A DNA stretch of 55,156 bases from an uncultured Bacilli bacterium. Its GTDB lineage: Bacteria; Bacillota_I; Bacilli_A; RF39; UBA660. Positions 1-6,598 of the stretch are shown in pieces. The position numbers were made by a program, and so were the translations under genes. Position 1 is the first letter of the stretch; the number at the start of each line of letters is the position of its first letter. The stretch covers positions 1-55,156 of the forward strand of contig CATNCE010000006.1 of the NCBI GenBank assembly GCA_950097225.1, written 5' to 3'. The notes under the pieces are model-generated. The model searched no databases. It was not told the DNA's origin and saw nothing but the letters and a program-made list of their open reading frames with translations.

Positions 1-1608
1 ATAAATAATACTTTGAATATAGGTTTTAATAATACATTCTTAGATGATGTTGTATTCATAAAAACAAAAACTGAGGGAACTGCTTCTATAAGTGAAGATG
101 GGAAGTCGATTACTTATGATGCTAAAAAAATAAGTAATAAAGATGAAGAAGCAAATCTAACATTCTGGATAAAAAATGAAAATACTCAATATGATGCAGA
201 TGTATCTATTAATTGTAGTCTAAATGATAATTCAAGTAACTTAGCTGATTTAGTTGATTTAACAATTGAGCCAAGTAACTTTGTATTAGAATCTAATGAA
301 GTAAAGACAGGCGAAGTAAAAGTAAAGTTAAAAAGTGTAGTAACCGAAGAAAAATATGGAACATTTACATGTGAATTAGTAGCAACGCCAACTGAAAGAG
401 AAGTACCAGGTGTAATAACTGATACATGTATAGAAGATTTAAATGGAGCAGAACCAGTGATAAATGGAGAGTTAATACCAGTTGAATTATCAAATAATGG
501 TGAAGTTACATATTCTGATGAGAGTGAATCTTGGTACAACTATTGTGAACAAAAATGGGCTAATACAGTAATACTAGTTGATAGTCCAAGCAAAACTTAT
601 AATGTAGGTGATATAATTCAGGAAAGTGATATTGAATCATATTTCGTATGGATACCAAGATATCGATATAAGTTGTTTCATGCTAATCAAGCAGATGGTT
701 ATGAAAATAAATTATCAGAAAGTATAGCCCAGACAATCGAGATTGAGTTTGAGAGTAAAGATACACCAGTATCAAATGGAACTCAAGACGGAGAATGGTT
801 AACGCATCCCGCCTTCACAAATTTCGATGTAAATGGAATGTGGGTAGGTAAATTCGAAATAGGATATAAAGGAGCAACAAGTGTATCTTCTGCTCAAGTA
901 AGTTCATCCGATCCAACCAAAATCCAAGTAAAACCGAGTGTATATAGTTGGCGTTCCAACTCAGTAGGTAATTTTTTCAAAGCCATGTATAATTATAATC
1001 GTGGGTTAGATTCGCATATGATGAAGAATACAGAATGGGGAGCTGTTGCATATTTAAGTCATTCAAGATATGGAATAAACACAGAAGTAAGAATAAATAA
1101 TAATTCCAATTTTTTAACAGGATATGCAGCTAATACCAAAGATGCAGGGCAAAGTACTACAGCAAACCAGCCATATAATACAGAAACAGGATATCTAGCA
1201 TCAACTACTGGTAATATAACTGGAGTATATGATATGTCTGGTGGCGCATGGGAATACGTAGCAGGATATAGAGATGGAAATGTCAAGAATAGTGGACTAA
1301 CATTAGACGAAATAAGAAACACCTATAGTAAATATATAGATGTATATGCAAGTAATAGTGTAGTAACAACATATAGTAAGCGTATATTAGGAGATGCCAC
1401 AGGAGAAATGGGACCATTTTATTATTCTAGTGGATATTATCGAAATAACTGGTATGATGATTATTCGTACTTTGTGGAGTCTTCTTACCCTTGGTTCGGT
1501 CGCGGCGGCTATTACGGCCATGGCTCCGGTGCAGGCCAGTTCTACTTCGGTAGGAGCACTGGTGGTGCCTACAGCGGCGACAGCGCTCGCCTCGTACTTT
1601 GTGGTTAA
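1..1608 (+). CDS. Secreted DGR target-like protein, TasA-like N-domain plus FGE/C-type-lectin-fold C-domain (5' end outside window)
   Basis: The reading frame is open from base 1, so the signal peptide and start lie upstream; the paralogue at 54415 shows what is missing. About 535 residues are visible. Residues 1-135 match the N-domain of that paralogue and share the pattern SEDGK-IT...E-A-LT...N with the TasA-like protein at 49686. A linker with two cysteines (DTC near 143, NYC near 182) leads to YFVWIPRYRYK near 215. The rest looks like a formylglycine-generating-enzyme/C-type-lectin fold: MWVGKFEIGYKG, NTEWGAVAYLS, and DMSGGAWEYVAG, which corresponds to the usual D-M-S-G-N-V-W-E-W. The last 42 codons are GC-rich and end in ARLVLCG, like the GFRxVL end of DGR targets. 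Likely role: surface display of a variable binding domain. That role is inferred; the fold call is by motif only. Confidence 0.8.
   Translation: MNNTLNIGFNNTFLDDVVFIKTKTEGTASISEDGKSITYDAKKISNKDEEANLTFWIKNENTQYDADVSINCSLNDNSSNLADLVDLTIEPSNFVLESNEVKTGEVKVKLKSVVTEEKYGTFTCELVATPTEREVPGVITDTCIEDLNGAEPVINGELIPVELSNNGEVTYSDESESWYNYCEQKWANTVILVDSPSKTYNVGDIIQESDIESYFVWIPRYRYKLFHANQADGYENKLSESIAQTIEIEFESKDTPVSNGTQDGEWLTHPAFTNFDVNGMWVGKFEIGYKGATSVSSAQVSSSDPTKIQVKPSVYSWRSNSVGNFFKAMYNYNRGLDSHMMKNTEWGAVAYLSHSRYGINTEVRINNNSNFLTGYAANTKDAGQSTTANQPYNTETGYLASTTGNITGVYDMSGGAWEYVAGYRDGNVKNSGLTLDEIRNTYSKYIDVYASNSVVTTYSKRILGDATGEMGPFYYSSGYYRNNWYDDYSYFVESSYPWFGRGGYYGHGSGAGQFYFGRSTGGAYSGDSARLVLCG
1480..1605 (+). other. 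Candidate DGR variable region (VR)
   Basis: This 126-base stretch is about 61% GC (77 of 126 counted) inside a gene that is otherwise AT-rich. Roughly 15 codons are TAC, TAT, GGT, GGC, CAT, AGC or GAC. Each can be derived from AAC or AAT by changing only adenines, while the codons between them (TGG, TTC, CGC, TCC, GCA, CAG, GCC) look fixed. The segment sits at the extreme C-terminus and ends in CGCCTCGTACTTTGTGGT just before the stop, where the conserved 3' anchor of a VR is expected. No template repeat was found in the window, so the call rests on composition, codon pattern and position. Confidence 0.72.
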
Positions 1609-1615
1609 TTTATAC

Positions 1616-1643
1616 AAAGATAATATCAAATATTGTCTTTTTT
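1616..1643 (+). terminator. Intrinsic terminator of the DGR target-like gene
   Basis: AAAGATAATAT and ATATTGTCTTT pair with one G-U around a CAA loop, followed by a T run. It lies 8 bases after the stop codon. Confidence 0.75.
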
Positions 1644-1713
1644 CTTTACACTTATCGTGTATAAAACTCTTTACTTTCTAGTAATTATGATAAAATATAA
1701 ATAGGTGAAGTAT

Positions 1714-2370
1714 ATGATAAGTGGGGATATGCTTAAATATTATCGAGAAAAAGCGAATTTAACAACTAAAGAATTAGCAAAAAGAATTAATGCGCCTAAA
1801 GTTATCGTTGAACTTTGGGAAGTCGGCAAAAAGATGCCTCGTGAAAAAGATATCGCCAAGTTATGCGAAATATATGGCATAAGCGAATCGGATTTAATTA
1901 TTGTTCCAAAACACAACCACAGAATAATAATTTCTATTATTTTGGGAATCATATCAATAATAATAGGTTTCATTGTTAAAAGTATAGTTATTGGTATTTT
2001 TGCACCTATCATGGTGGCAATCTTGTTTTTAACCACGATGTGTATAAAAGATAATTTTAGCAAATCATCTGATATTCCTAAAACTCTATTTTCTCTTCCT
2101 TTAGATGGTATTGGATTAAAAGAAAGAGTACATTACTACTTAGCCGATGCACTATGCATATCGAGTACATATATAATATTTAACATTATATGTAAAATTT
2201 TGGGCTTATATCAAATTATTATTAATAAATCCTTTGTTGACAATATCGACCTTAATTATGCTATCATTTGGAGCTCATTATTTTTATTACTAAGTGTTCT
2301 TGTTTTTATAATTGAATTTGTAATTGGTGAATACTTAAAAAAACAATATAAGGAGAATAATCATGAATGA
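1714..2370 (+). CDS. XRE-family transcriptional regulator with membrane-spanning C-terminal half
   Basis: Residues 5-60 form a Cro/CI-type helix-turn-helix (MLKYYREKANLTTKELA, then a recognition helix around VIVELWEVGKKMP). The remainder has about four hydrophobic helices (two near 70-110, two near 150-210), so the DNA-binding domain would be tethered to the membrane. The ATG at 1714 is preferred over a GTG at 1705 because AGGTGA sits 6 bases upstream of it and overlaps the GTG. The stop overlaps the next gene by 8 bases, so 1714-3840 is probably one operon. A small inverted repeat TACAC-TTATC-GTGTA near 1647-1661 could be an operator, though this is weak. The target is unknown; the DGR target-like gene just upstream is one possibility. 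Confidence 0.8.
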   Translation: MISGDMLKYYREKANLTTKELAKRINAPKVIVELWEVGKKMPREKDIAKLCEIYGISESDLIIVPKHNHRIIISIILGIISIIIGFIVKSIVIGIFAPIMVAILFLTTMCIKDNFSKSSDIPKTLFSLPLDGIGLKERVHYYLADALCISSTYIIFNIICKILGLYQIIINKSFVDNIDLNYAIIWSSLFLLLSVLVFIIEFVIGEYLKKQYKENNHE

Positions 2371-3878: not shown

Positions 3879-3907
3879 TTGCTTTATTAAGGATAATATG
3901 CTATAAT
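3879..3907 (+). promoter_or_regulatory. Promoter of the OLE-like RNA
   Basis: TTGCTT (3879-3884), a 17-base spacer and a perfect TATAAT (3902-3907), placing transcription start near 3914. Confidence 0.75.
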
Positions 3908-3913
3908 GTCTTA

Positions 3914-4431
3914 CATGTGTGGTGCATTATGCTAGTCATTATACTATTTGAAGGTAGGGCTAAAAATCTACCAATTGTACAACTGAGACTTCGCATATCT
4001 GCTTCTTCGGCCCAAGTTGGGGTGGATTTGTGATTTAAAATATTAGGATAAACTATAATGGCATATAGTTGATGATTCCTTTTATTGCCTCACTTATACA
4101 AAGATAGTAAAATAACGTACATGATGTGAGTGATTACTAGGGATTTGCAAAATGAAATAGTAATTGCAAAAGCATATAAGAATAGTCACTTTTGTTAGGG
4201 AAAACCTCTAGCGTGTATATATTATAAGTATTGGAGTGCGGACTAAGTGGTAATCGAGTAGTTAGATTCGGTAACGACTAACTAATCTATTTAAATCGAA
4301 AGAGCTCGCGGGTAACTAAGAGTATGAGATTAGAGAAATTCAACTCGACCAAAGCCGTAAAATTGATTTATAATATACCATACAAGATTTGACTTTAATT
4401 CGGGGAAAGAAGCGAGTTAAAGTTTTTTTTT
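3914..4431 (+). ncRNA. ole: Large structured non-coding RNA, probable OLE RNA
   Basis: This roughly 518-base transcript has its own sigma-A-type promoter and a strong terminator, and no open reading frame of any credible length on either strand. Internal pairings are visible, for example GTTAG...CTAAC nested inside AGATT...AATCT near 4259-4290, and purine-rich linkers such as TAGGGAAAACCTCTAG near 4196. Immediately downstream is a four-helix membrane protein resembling OapA, the partner of OLE (ornate, large, extremophilic) RNA. Length, autonomy and neighbour all fit OLE, known from anaerobic and alkaliphilic Firmicutes, where the RNA binds OapA at the membrane and affects stress tolerance. 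The identification depends on the neighbour; I could not align the RNA to the family model. Alternatives are another large ornate RNA class such as ROOL. Confidence 0.68.
4391..4431 (+). terminator. Intrinsic terminator of the OLE-like RNA
   Basis: ACTTTAATTCG (4392-4402) pairs along 11 positions with CGAGTTAAAGT (4413-4423), one pair being G-U, followed by nine T. Confidence 0.9.
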
Positions 4432-4469
4432 GCTTTTATTTTTGATATAATTATCTTTAAGGTGATAAT

Positions 4470-4994
4470 ATGAAGAAGAAAGATAGTTTTATAGTAACCA
4501 TATTCATTATGACATTTATCTTATCAGTTGTATTTAGTAGTATTTCTAATGTCATTGCTGCTACATTTAACGATATCGTCTTATTTTTTATAATGATTCT
4601 CGTTATCTCGATAGGTATATTATTTGATGCGATTGGTACGGCTGGAATAACGGCTAAAGAGGCTACTTTTCATTCTATGTCATCATCTAAAATAAAAGGA
4701 GCTAAACATGCTCTAAAATTGATCAAAAGTGGCAGTAAAATATCTTCTATATGCAACGATGTTATTGGCGATGTATGTGGAATTATCTCCGGTGGCTTAG
4801 GAGCAGTTTTAGCTATAAGCTTAGCAACGAGATTTAACATCAACAACACCCTAATATCGGTAATTATCTCGGCATTTATCTCAAGTTTTACTGTAGGCGG
4901 GAAGGCCGTAATTAAAAAAATTGCCATAAAAAAGGCTGATAACATAATATTCGGAGTTGGAAAGATAATGTATTTCTTTAGTATTAAAAAATAA
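4470..4994 (+). CDS. oapA: OapA-like four-helix membrane protein (OLE RNA partner)
   Basis: It has 174 residues with hydrophobic helices near 8-30, 35-58, 103-118 and 125-143, and Lys-rich ends. The middle carries a strongly patterned stretch: FDAIGTAGITAKEATFHSM (52-70), KGAKHALKLIK (76-86) and CNDVIGDVCGIISGG (95-109), including a D-x3-D (D97, D101). From memory this matches the family annotated OapA or CorB-like in Bacillus and Clostridium, which binds OLE RNA and places it at the membrane. AAGGTGAT precedes the ATG. It lies 38 bases after the RNA's terminator, so it may be expressed by read-through or from its own promoter (TTGATATAAT near 4442). The ending GGKAVIKKIAIKKAD-I also fits the family as I remember it. 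Little else in bacteria looks like this. Confidence 0.78.
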   Translation: MKKKDSFIVTIFIMTFILSVVFSSISNVIAATFNDIVLFFIMILVISIGILFDAIGTAGITAKEATFHSMSSSKIKGAKHALKLIKSGSKISSICNDVIGDVCGIISGGLGAVLAISLATRFNINNTLISVIISAFISSFTVGGKAVIKKIAIKKADNIIFGVGKIMYFFSIKK

Positions 4995-5026
4995 ATATAG
5001 GTAACTATATAAAAAAGGATGATTAA

Positions 5027-5785
5027 ATGAAAGCACTAATAACAGGAGCGAGTAGTGGAATAGGCTATGAAATGGCTCGCTACTTAAATGATTTAGGTAT
5101 TGATTTAATTGTAGTAGGTCGTCGTAAAGATCGCCTCGTGGCACTAAAAAAAGAATTACAGGTTGAAGTCAAAGTAATTCCTTTAGATTTATCTGAATTT
5201 GATAATGTTGAACTTCTGTATAATGAGGTAAAAAATGATAATATTGATATAGTTATTAATAACGCAGGATTTGGTTTATCTGGTGAATTTAGTAAAACAG
5301 ATATTGAAACAGAGATGAAAATGATTAACGTTAACATTAAACAAGTCCATTATTTAACTAAGATGTTTTTAAAAGACTTTATCAAAAGAGATTCTGGTTA
5401 TATTTTAAATGTTGCCTCATCTGCTGGTTTTATGGCAGGTCCTAAGTTGTCTACGTATTATGCCACTAAAAATTATATCCTCAAATTAACAGAGGCTATA
5501 TATGAAGAAATACGCCATAAAAAGAATAATGTCCATATCAGTGCTCTTTGTCCAGGACCAGTTAATACAGAATTTAACACAGTAGCAAAGTGTGAATTTC
5601 ATACTAAATCGGCATCTCCTGAGTTTGTAGCTAAATACGGAATAGACCAAATGTTTAAACAGAAGTTGATCATTATTCCTACTATGCGCATGAAATTGGC
5701 CATATTTTTAATACGCTTTCTGCCAACTAAGCTTCTACTAAAAATAACTTATAATATTCAAGATCGTAAGACAACAAAAAAATAG
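5027..5785 (+). CDS. Short-chain dehydrogenase/reductase (SDR), NADP-type
   Basis: Classical SDR of 252 residues. Visible features are the nucleotide-binding TGASSGIG (7-14), an Arg-Arg pair after the second strand (VVGRRKDR) that usually marks NADP preference, NNAG near 83-86, the catalytic Ser in NVASSAG (128-134), and the YxxxK of YYATKNY (Tyr near 145, Lys 149). PGPVNTEF follows as expected. The C-terminal 40 residues are hydrophobic and basic, suggesting membrane association as in DltE/YqjQ-like members. The substrate cannot be told from sequence. The ATG at 5027 has AAAGGATGA upstream. It sits downstream of the oapA-like gene, with a shared terminator facing the slipin gene. Confidence 0.88.
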   Translation: MKALITGASSGIGYEMARYLNDLGIDLIVVGRRKDRLVALKKELQVEVKVIPLDLSEFDNVELLYNEVKNDNIDIVINNAGFGLSGEFSKTDIETEMKMINVNIKQVHYLTKMFLKDFIKRDSGYILNVASSAGFMAGPKLSTYYATKNYILKLTEAIYEEIRHKKNNVHISALCPGPVNTEFNTVAKCEFHTKSASPEFVAKYGIDQMFKQKLIIIPTMRMKLAIFLIRFLPTKLLLKITYNIQDRKTTKK

Positions 5786-5823
5786 GGCACATCTTCTAAA
5801 ATGTGTCCTGTTTCTTTATTTTT
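5785..5823. terminator. Terminator between convergent genes
   Basis: GGGCACAT and ATGTGTCC pair around CTTCTAAA, followed by TGTTTCTTTATTTTTTT. It lies between the SDR and slipin stops and may serve both strands. Confidence 0.7.
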
Positions 5824-6598
5824 TTGCTATTTTATCAATAATATCTTTTATTTTGGCATTATCACCATCAAATGCTCTTAACACTTCAATAGGTACAGCA
5901 AATATAATCGTATTAGATTGATCCGATGATACATCATTTAAAGTTGCTAATGTTCTTAAGTGTAATGCACCAGGAGTAACCGACATTATCTCAGCAGCCT
6001 TAGCTAGATTAATAGCAGCTTCTTCTTCACCTTTTGACTTTGTGATAACTGCTTGTTTTTCTCTTTCTGCTTCAGCAACTTTGGCAATAACTCTTTGCAT
6101 CTCTTCTGGTAATTTGATGTCTTTTAGCTCAACATTTTCAACTTTGATTCCCCATGGATCTGTAGCTTCATCAATTATATTGCAAATCTCAGTAGATATC
6201 TTTTCGCGTTCAGTTAATAGTTCGTCTAAAGAAACTGCCCCAACAGCATTACGCATTGTCGTTTGGGCAAGTTGTGAAACAGCATATTGATATCTCTCAA
6301 CCGCAATAACTGCTTTAGAAGCATCAAACACTTTATAATAAATTACAGCATTAATGCGAATCGAAACATTGTCCTTTGTGATAGCATCCTGTTCAGGAAC
6401 ATCAACTGCCTTTGTTCTAATATCGACTTTTTGGAAACTCTGAATTATTGGTAATACAATATTCCATCCTGGATTTAATATTCTCTTATATTTTCCGCAT
6501 TGGAATAAAATTCCTCTTTCATATTCTGAGATTTGACGGATTGATGATAAAATAATTATGACAATAACAACGATGATAATAGGTACTAAAAACTCCAT
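5816..6598 (-). CDS. Slipin/stomatin-like SPFH-domain membrane protein
   Basis: It has 260 residues: an N-terminal membrane helix (about 3-20), then the SPFH/Band-7 domain with the stomatin-type motifs ISEYERGILFQCGKY (25-39), NPGWNIVLPII and VDIRTKAVDVPEQDAITKDN, and an Ala/Glu-rich helix (EAEREKQAVITKSKGEEEAAINLA) that drives oligomerisation in this family. Length is normal for bacterial slipins. Such proteins organise membrane microdomains; slipins are often paired with an NfeD protein, which is not seen next to this one. The start has AAAGGAG 7 bases upstream. It is a single-gene unit convergent with the SDR gene. Confidence 0.92.
   Translation of the reverse strand: MEFLVPIIIVVIVIIILSSIRQISEYERGILFQCGKYKRILNPGWNIVLPIIQSFQKVDIRTKAVDVPEQDAITKDNVSIRINAVIYYKVFDASKAVIAVERYQYAVSQLAQTTMRNAVGAVSLDELLTEREKISTEICNIIDEATDPWGIKVENVELKDIKLPEEMQRVIAKVAEAEREKQAVITKSKGEEEAAINLAKAAEIMSVTPGALHLRTLATLNDVSSDQSNTIIFAVPIEVLRAFDGDNAKIKDIIDKIAKK

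Follow-up and report, generated by a model that had tools for sequence, protein, structure and literature searches.

A short-form OLE RNA and its partner OapA in the genome of an uncultured Bacilli bacterium

The locus at 3903-4994 of the stretch analysed here (55,156 nt of one contig, referred to throughout as the window) carries a genuine OLE RNA together with the gene for its partner protein OapA, confirming the central claim of the original prediction. The RNA is another member of OLE variant 2, so that a form without P7 and P8 is already in the literature; to the published variant we add the loss of the P9.3 palindrome, a split among OapA proteins that follows the form of the RNA, and a still shorter "mini" form in related genomes. 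Our analysis provides the identity of the RNA, its conserved structure, the identity and predicted fold of OapA, the co-occurrence of the two, and searches in which OapB, OapC and MpfA were not detectable. Our favored reading, to which we give a probability of roughly 60%, is that the short OLE and its obligate partner OapA form a minimal membrane ribonucleoprotein (RNP) controlling the flux of divalent metal (Mg2+), perhaps together with bS21.

An OLE RNA with its own predicted ends, upstream of oapA

The covariance-model search proposed in the original prediction yielded a match to RF01071, the Rfam OLE family, at 3903-4397 on the forward strand, with 221.6 bits (E 3.7e-61; gathering score 50 bits) and all 616 model positions covered, which dismisses a chance match or an RNA other than OLE. 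It is the sole Rfam match within the window and the single OLE copy of the host genome. The prediction was to fall if the OLE model gave no hit and the protein belonged to an unrelated family; instead, the model match is strong and the protein is OapA. Features of the locus are collected in Table 1, where helix names (P5, P6, P9, L4 and so on) are assigned from published descriptions and the order of the Rfam model.

Table 1. Features of the OLE-oapA locus in the window, and of mini-OLE loci in related genomes
Feature	Position	Strand	Basis
-35 of the OLE gene, weak, TTGCTT	~3879-3884		
Extended -10 promoter element of the OLE gene, TGC-TATAAT	3899-3907	+	Sequence; comparison across short-form loci
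OLE RNA, short form without P7 and P8	3903-4397 (transcript ~3914-4431, predicted ends)	+	RF01071; covariation (n = 37)
Hairpin with conserved loop CUAAAAAUC (L4, bridge B1 of the published dimer)	3953-3972	+	Model alignment; 37/37 short forms
P5 hairpin region	3991-4033	+	Model alignment; covariation (9/15 pairs changed on both sides)
P6 hairpin, loop AAUGGCAU	4039-4086	+	Model alignment; covariation helices 3-5
Joining stretch replacing the missing P7 and P8	4087-4122	+	Local model gaps
Shortened P9; 8-nt tip with GCAA loop instead of the P9.3 arm	4123-4176	+	
Conserved GGGAAAACCUCUAG segment	4198-4211	+	Model alignment
Domain 2 (3' domain with P13), closing helix 4218-4228/4367-4377	4218-4377	+	Covariation helices 10-16
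Intrinsic terminator between ole and oapA	4391-4431	+	RNA fold
Candidate -10 of oapA (TATAAT, 4446-4451) and ribosome-binding site (AAGGTGA, 4459-4465)	4446-4465	+	Sequence
oapA, OLE-associated membrane protein A, 174 aa; DxxxD is D97...D101	4470-4994	+	
Short-chain dehydrogenase/reductase (SDR) gene	5027-5785	+	Pfam PF00106, E 3.5e-41
Mini-OLE, L189 (G065)	1501-1881		
Mini-OLE, L188 (G199)	1501-1878	-	
Mini-OLE, L187 (G136)	1501-1878		
Mini-OLE, L096	2568-2948		

The RNA had been put at about 518 bases with a promoter and a terminator of its own, and this holds within the limits of predicting both ends. The TATAAT at 3902-3907 has a TG upstream, and a -10-like box with at most one mismatch stands in the same place in 34 of the 35 short-form loci with enough upstream sequence for the comparison (21 of them exact), versus 45 of 140 control stretches. 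At the other end, the hairpin at 4391-4424 running into a T tract has a computed folding energy of -12.1 kcal/mol (z -2.9), and this terminator element is also found in all seven OLE-bearing genomes of the host's own genus (coded g1). A scan for promoter and terminator patterns did not rise above shuffled sequences and missed the terminator, and the cross-locus comparison and the fold were used in its place.

The start of oapA lies 73 nt downstream of the OLE model match, and both motifs first noticed as OapA-like, CNDVIGDVCGIISGG and FHSM...KGAKHA, are present in the encoded protein. The DxxxD motif is the published mark of OapA (PMC11332333), and both of its aspartates are invariant in 48/48 aligned OapA relatives. 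An AlphaFold2 model built from this 48-sequence alignment (pLDDT 87.5) predicts long helices at residues 2-32, 35-61, 88-122 and 126-154, bearing out the suggestion of a four-helix membrane protein. Its top structural matches are MtCorB (7m1t; Z 14.0, rmsd 1.9 over 127 residues), 7m1u (Z 13.2) and CorC (7cff; Z 12.1), the three CNNM chains superposing at an rmsd of 1.9-2.5 across 124-128 residues, and the next row, an unrelated helical bundle, falls to Z 8.2; Foldseek also ranks the same CNNM entries first (best E 0.011). The predicted structure thus has the four transmembrane helices and CNNM-like fold of OapA, and together with the DxxxD motif and the exact co-occurrence with OLE given below it identifies the protein.

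At the level of sequence families, the protein matched nothing in NCBIfam, and the OapA profile found no match among PDB sequences up to E 10. We reject its placement in Pfam CNNM proper (PF01595), which it matches with 16.3 bits (E 0.0079) against a cut-off of 28.4; an E value of 0.01 or lower is reached by 30 of the 48 OapA relatives. The nearest named relatives by OapA are metagenome-assembled genomes (MAGs) of uncultured Bacilli, Erysipelotrichaceae and Tenericutes.

The SDR gene expected after oapA is also in place. Such a gene occurs at most about 650 bases downstream of OapA in all seven OLE-bearing g1 genomes and in locus L075, and elsewhere among the other loci the 4 kb around OapA hold none but one weak 27% match. 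The gene is syntenic in the clade and at most a candidate for membership in the RNP. In six of the seven g1 genomes and in L075, oapA and the SDR gene are separated by a PAP2-family gene, which is not found at the corresponding place in the window (4994-5027). DltE is itself an SDR, so the link between SDR genes and OLE is possibly not new: dltE is among the neighbors found often beside OLE. That listing of frequent OLE neighbors was given by the Breaker group (PMC12265935). Further downstream is a gene for an SPFH/Band 7 protein (5816-6598, minus strand), which is also near OapA in four genus relatives.

Partner proteins and the tie between OLE and OapA

The search for oapB and oapC that the original prediction called for found neither gene in the host genome, a 92%-complete MAG of a gut bacterium. 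OapC belongs to the L7Ae family (PF01248), of which there is no member in the host genome or in any of 37 family genomes, whereas 21 of 23 genomes from other families in the class have one; genes absent from a 92%-complete MAG could reflect assembly gaps, but for OapC the family-wide L7Ae result argues against this. As for OapB-like proteins, the host has two KOW proteins only, read by eye as NusG-like and L24-like, and its map and infA genes, between which ybzG/oapB sits in other genomes, overlap with no ORF between them. That the RF39 clade is largely without OapB and OapC has been published (PMC11332333). The gene for bS21 is present in the host (PF01165, E 9.6e-15).

The host genome likewise has no CNNM protein at E 0.001 or better and no MpfA-like gene, leaving OLE-OapA as its only detected CNNM-type system. 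An MpfA-type CNNM occurs in 0/24 OLE-bearing genomes versus 20/23 genomes of other families of the class (eight weak CNNM matches in OLE genomes are OapA itself, by coordinates). A simple replacement of OLE by MpfA within the host family is nonetheless rejected: 12 of the 13 family genomes without OLE among the 60 relatives searched also have no MpfA-type CNNM, although not all of these assemblies are complete. The 12 genomes, with no detected OLE/OapA or MpfA-type CNNM, are G003, G007, G009, G014, G015, G017, G019, G022, G028, G029, G030 and G035.

In H. halodurans (Halalkalibacterium halodurans), the P5 region is described as the OapC k-turn region, P6 as the bS21 site and the P13 loop as the OapB site. 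The short form still conserves its P5/P6 region and its P13 loop (GGGUAAC), as might be expected if it retained a full set of partners, with proteins lacking sequence kinship to OapB and OapC in their stead and an RNP that is not minimal. We regard this as unlikely, however, given that 37/37 family genomes are free of any L7Ae member, that the only KOW proteins of the host are NusG-like and L24-like, and that the mini-OLE described below has neither P5 nor P6 yet keeps OapA.

Across the 60 relatives, OLE occurs in 24 genomes and OapA (by profile) in 24, and these are the identical 24 genomes. OapA is intact in all of the OLE-bearing relatives except G026, where it is cut by a contig end. In G011 the OLE RNA (L034, G011:C3:30733-31341) and OapA (G011:C12:5005-5514) sit on different contigs, so the tie between the two is not one of mere neighborhood. 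That OLE immediately precedes oapA, separated from it by a terminator, would also suit an RNA acting mainly in cis, as an oapA leader with the terminator as its switch, rather than as a trans-acting part of an RNP. We consider this highly improbable: apart from G011, oapA in G013 is about 1.2 kb away from OLE, many OLE loci have no run of six T before oapA, conservation spans the whole 500-nt fold, and in H. halodurans OLE is reported to be the trans-acting RNA of an RNP (PMC12265935).

The original prediction regarded OLE RNPs as rare, which does not hold for the host's family, where 249 of the 386 genomes searched carry OLE. Several loci depart from one OLE beside one OapA. Two full-length OLE loci that differ from each other, each accompanied by a separate OapA, occur in genome G388 (L200, G388:C37:9232-9824; L201, C101:1296-1892), which a duplication or a mixed bin would explain. 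In G032 a full-length copy is joined by another elsewhere in the genome (L025, 1446-1914; L050, G032:C3 to the contig end) that is truncated where its contig stops and misses the 5' conserved segment. For L115, the 3 kb upstream of OapA yield no match to OLE even at a relaxed threshold.

Graded loss of OLE parts in the clade

The P7 and P8 model positions are gaps in the window RNA, which is therefore not a full-length OLE (approximately 600 nt with P7 and P8). Variant 2 is described by Fernando and Breaker (2024; PMC11332333) for the RF39 clade as having lost P7 and P8 entirely while keeping the conserved nucleotides, as adjacent to oapA, and as occurring in gut genomes largely without OapB and OapC. 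The window RNA, with P7 and P8 wholly absent and the other conserved parts kept, belongs to variant 2, an assignment made with the Rfam model from the published description; no feature of the locus places it outside variant 2. The spacer between P6 and P9 is 14-30 nt long and variable in sequence in 37/37 short forms.

The changes extend to the contacts of the published dimer. The window RNA has no P9.3 arm; in the dimer solved by cryo-EM, the palindromic loop of this arm makes bridge B3 (PMC12286853). In that region 32/37 short forms are without any of the published palindromes (GGCC, GAUC, AGCU), and 5/37 contain one. Because P7 is missing, L7, a part of bridge B2, is gone as well, and the bridge B1 loop (CUAAAAAUC) and the B2 loops L5 and L6 are kept in 37/37. 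A gain of a GNRA tetraloop at P9 was considered for the short forms and rejected, as only 8/37 have one. The P9 tip of the window also contains the self-complementary TTGCAA, for which reason we call the loss of the loop-loop contact there likely and go no further.

Short forms score lower against RF01071 than full-length members of the family (217-248 versus 332-435 bits). To examine structural upkeep we used the Rfam structure fitted to the window (97/106 pairs, non-standard pairs dropped), a choice that somewhat favors that structure; across 37 short forms, 94.7% of cells were paired versus a shuffled mean of 83.0%, and 62 of the 97 pairs had changed on both sides versus a shuffled mean of 41.1, with 0/500 shuffles as high on any measure, and with partners slid by 1-3 columns only 37-46% paired. 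Judged from these alignments, the short form is a maintained RNA: the lower scores and the loss of P7, P8, P9.3, OapB and OapC could suggest a relic decaying in a reduced genome, but compensatory changes throughout the fold, the conserved promoter and the intact OapA of OLE-bearing relatives make this very doubtful.

The arms of P6 read AAGGA and UCCUU in 25/37 short forms. A Shine-Dalgarno/anti-Shine-Dalgarno (SD/ASD) mimic has been described for bS21 binding (PMC12054373), which these arms resemble, possibly by chance in an AU-rich RNA. In sister species of the genera coded g58 and g109, some OLE scores are in the range of the short form and others in that of the full form; these are scores and not coordinates, and may reflect both forms within one genus and an exchange of form.

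The form of the RNA and the type of OapA travel together. In a tree of 98 OapA proteins, one side holds 36 short, 1 mini and 5 unassigned loci and the other 50 full, 1 uncertain and 5 unassigned, the separating branch having an SH-aLRT of 96; the form of OLE changes once on this tree, and both lineages lie inside the window's family. The tree covers 98/105 loci, leaving out four duplicates and G011, G026 and G032b (no OapA in the stretch), and G136 and G199 are not in it; the forms of L077, L086, L096, L097, L101, L125, L133 and L149 were labeled by hand from lengths. Full-form OapA (12 loci of the family) is 171-229 aa long and mostly has a Lys/Arg-rich N-terminal extension, which short-form OapA (10 loci of the family) is without; starts were assigned mechanically, and one short-form ORF is listed as longer from an upstream start. 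The OapA of Candidatus Coprovivens, assigned to the order RF39 (PMC8035907), falls in the same half of the tree as that of the window, which makes RF39 the likely order of the host too.

The window locus itself belongs to published variant 2, and the new lead is the mini form. Mini-OLE RNAs of 381 nt (G065) and 378 nt (G199) in the genus coded g55, and of 378 nt (G136) in g126, match the model with 134-139 bits. P5, P6, P7 and P8 are gone from these RNAs, in which the 5' segment, the CUAAAAAUC hairpin, the P9 base and domain 2 remain, and each of them adjoins an intact OapA of 172-174 aa with DVVGD. Because they come from three separate assemblies (two genera) with matching boundaries, an assembly fault is disfavored. 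The G065 stretch recurs without any difference in L096, a named record from the rabbit gut, whose OapA groups with one short-form OapA (SH-aLRT 85). Three other candidates were set aside, G272 and G313 because they are truncated at contig ends and G360 (377 nt) because it has no domain 2 and its contig has the look of a chimera. Within the open-access literature searched, we found no description of a mini-OLE of about 380 nt. Fernando and Breaker state that matches of at least 235 bits in their own model were kept (PMC11332333), so matches near 134 bits may have been left out there, although bit scores are not directly comparable between the models.

Proposed working and significance

The window locus resembles the H. 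halodurans OLE RNP in having OLE, OapA with DxxxD and a CNNM-like fold, and a bS21 gene, and its predicted OapA fold repeats the result published for H. halodurans OapA. It differs in that the RNA is about 100 nt shorter, OapB and OapC were not found and the gene neighbors are other ones; moreover, a terminator stands between ole and oapA in the window, whereas one polycistronic RNA is described for the H. halodurans cluster (PMC12265935). In comparison with the MpfA, CorB and CorC (CNNM) Mg2+ transporters, OapA shares the transmembrane fold (Z 14.0 to MtCorB), but differs in carrying one more helix at its N terminus and a DxxxD motif not seen in CNNM proteins, in having neither CBS nor CorC domains, and in scoring too low for the cut-off of Pfam CNNM.

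OapA binding and metal phenotypes have been published for H. halodurans (PMC11332333, PMC12265935), and we draw on these genetics and on the predicted fold for RNA binding, membrane location, metal transport and regulation in the host. OLE RNA would be made from its own promoter and end at its own terminator, bind the four-helix OapA with its CNNM/CorB transporter fold, and be held at the membrane as a small RNP. There it would most likely regulate the transport of divalent metal (Mg2+), standing in for the CBS and CorC domains of MpfA-type proteins. Because OapB, OapC and MpfA were not found in the host, the working set is probably OLE and OapA, perhaps with bS21.

A wider proposal, which we put forward tentatively and at somewhat less than even odds, is that this clade retains only the core of the OLE machine: OapB, OapC, P7, P8 and P9.3 would have been dropped in the short form, and P5 to P8 in the mini of two related genera, which keeps an intact OapA. 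The essential device would then consist of OapA and three parts of the RNA (the CUAAAAAUC hairpin, the P9 base and domain 2), and the sites for OapC and bS21, like dimer bridges B2 and B3, would be additions it could do without.

Among conserved bacterial RNAs that have yet to be given a biochemical function, OLE is one of the largest. The window offers a clean example of the short form in a genome without detected OapB, OapC or MpfA, and it bears on whether OLE must form the published RNA-only dimer in order to work. For studies of structure and of OapA binding, short and mini OLE also provide an RNA of small size. What remains of lasting interest is how OLE parts are lost step by step across the clade, where the series from full-length through short to mini indicates which parts are dispensable and helps to define the OLE core.
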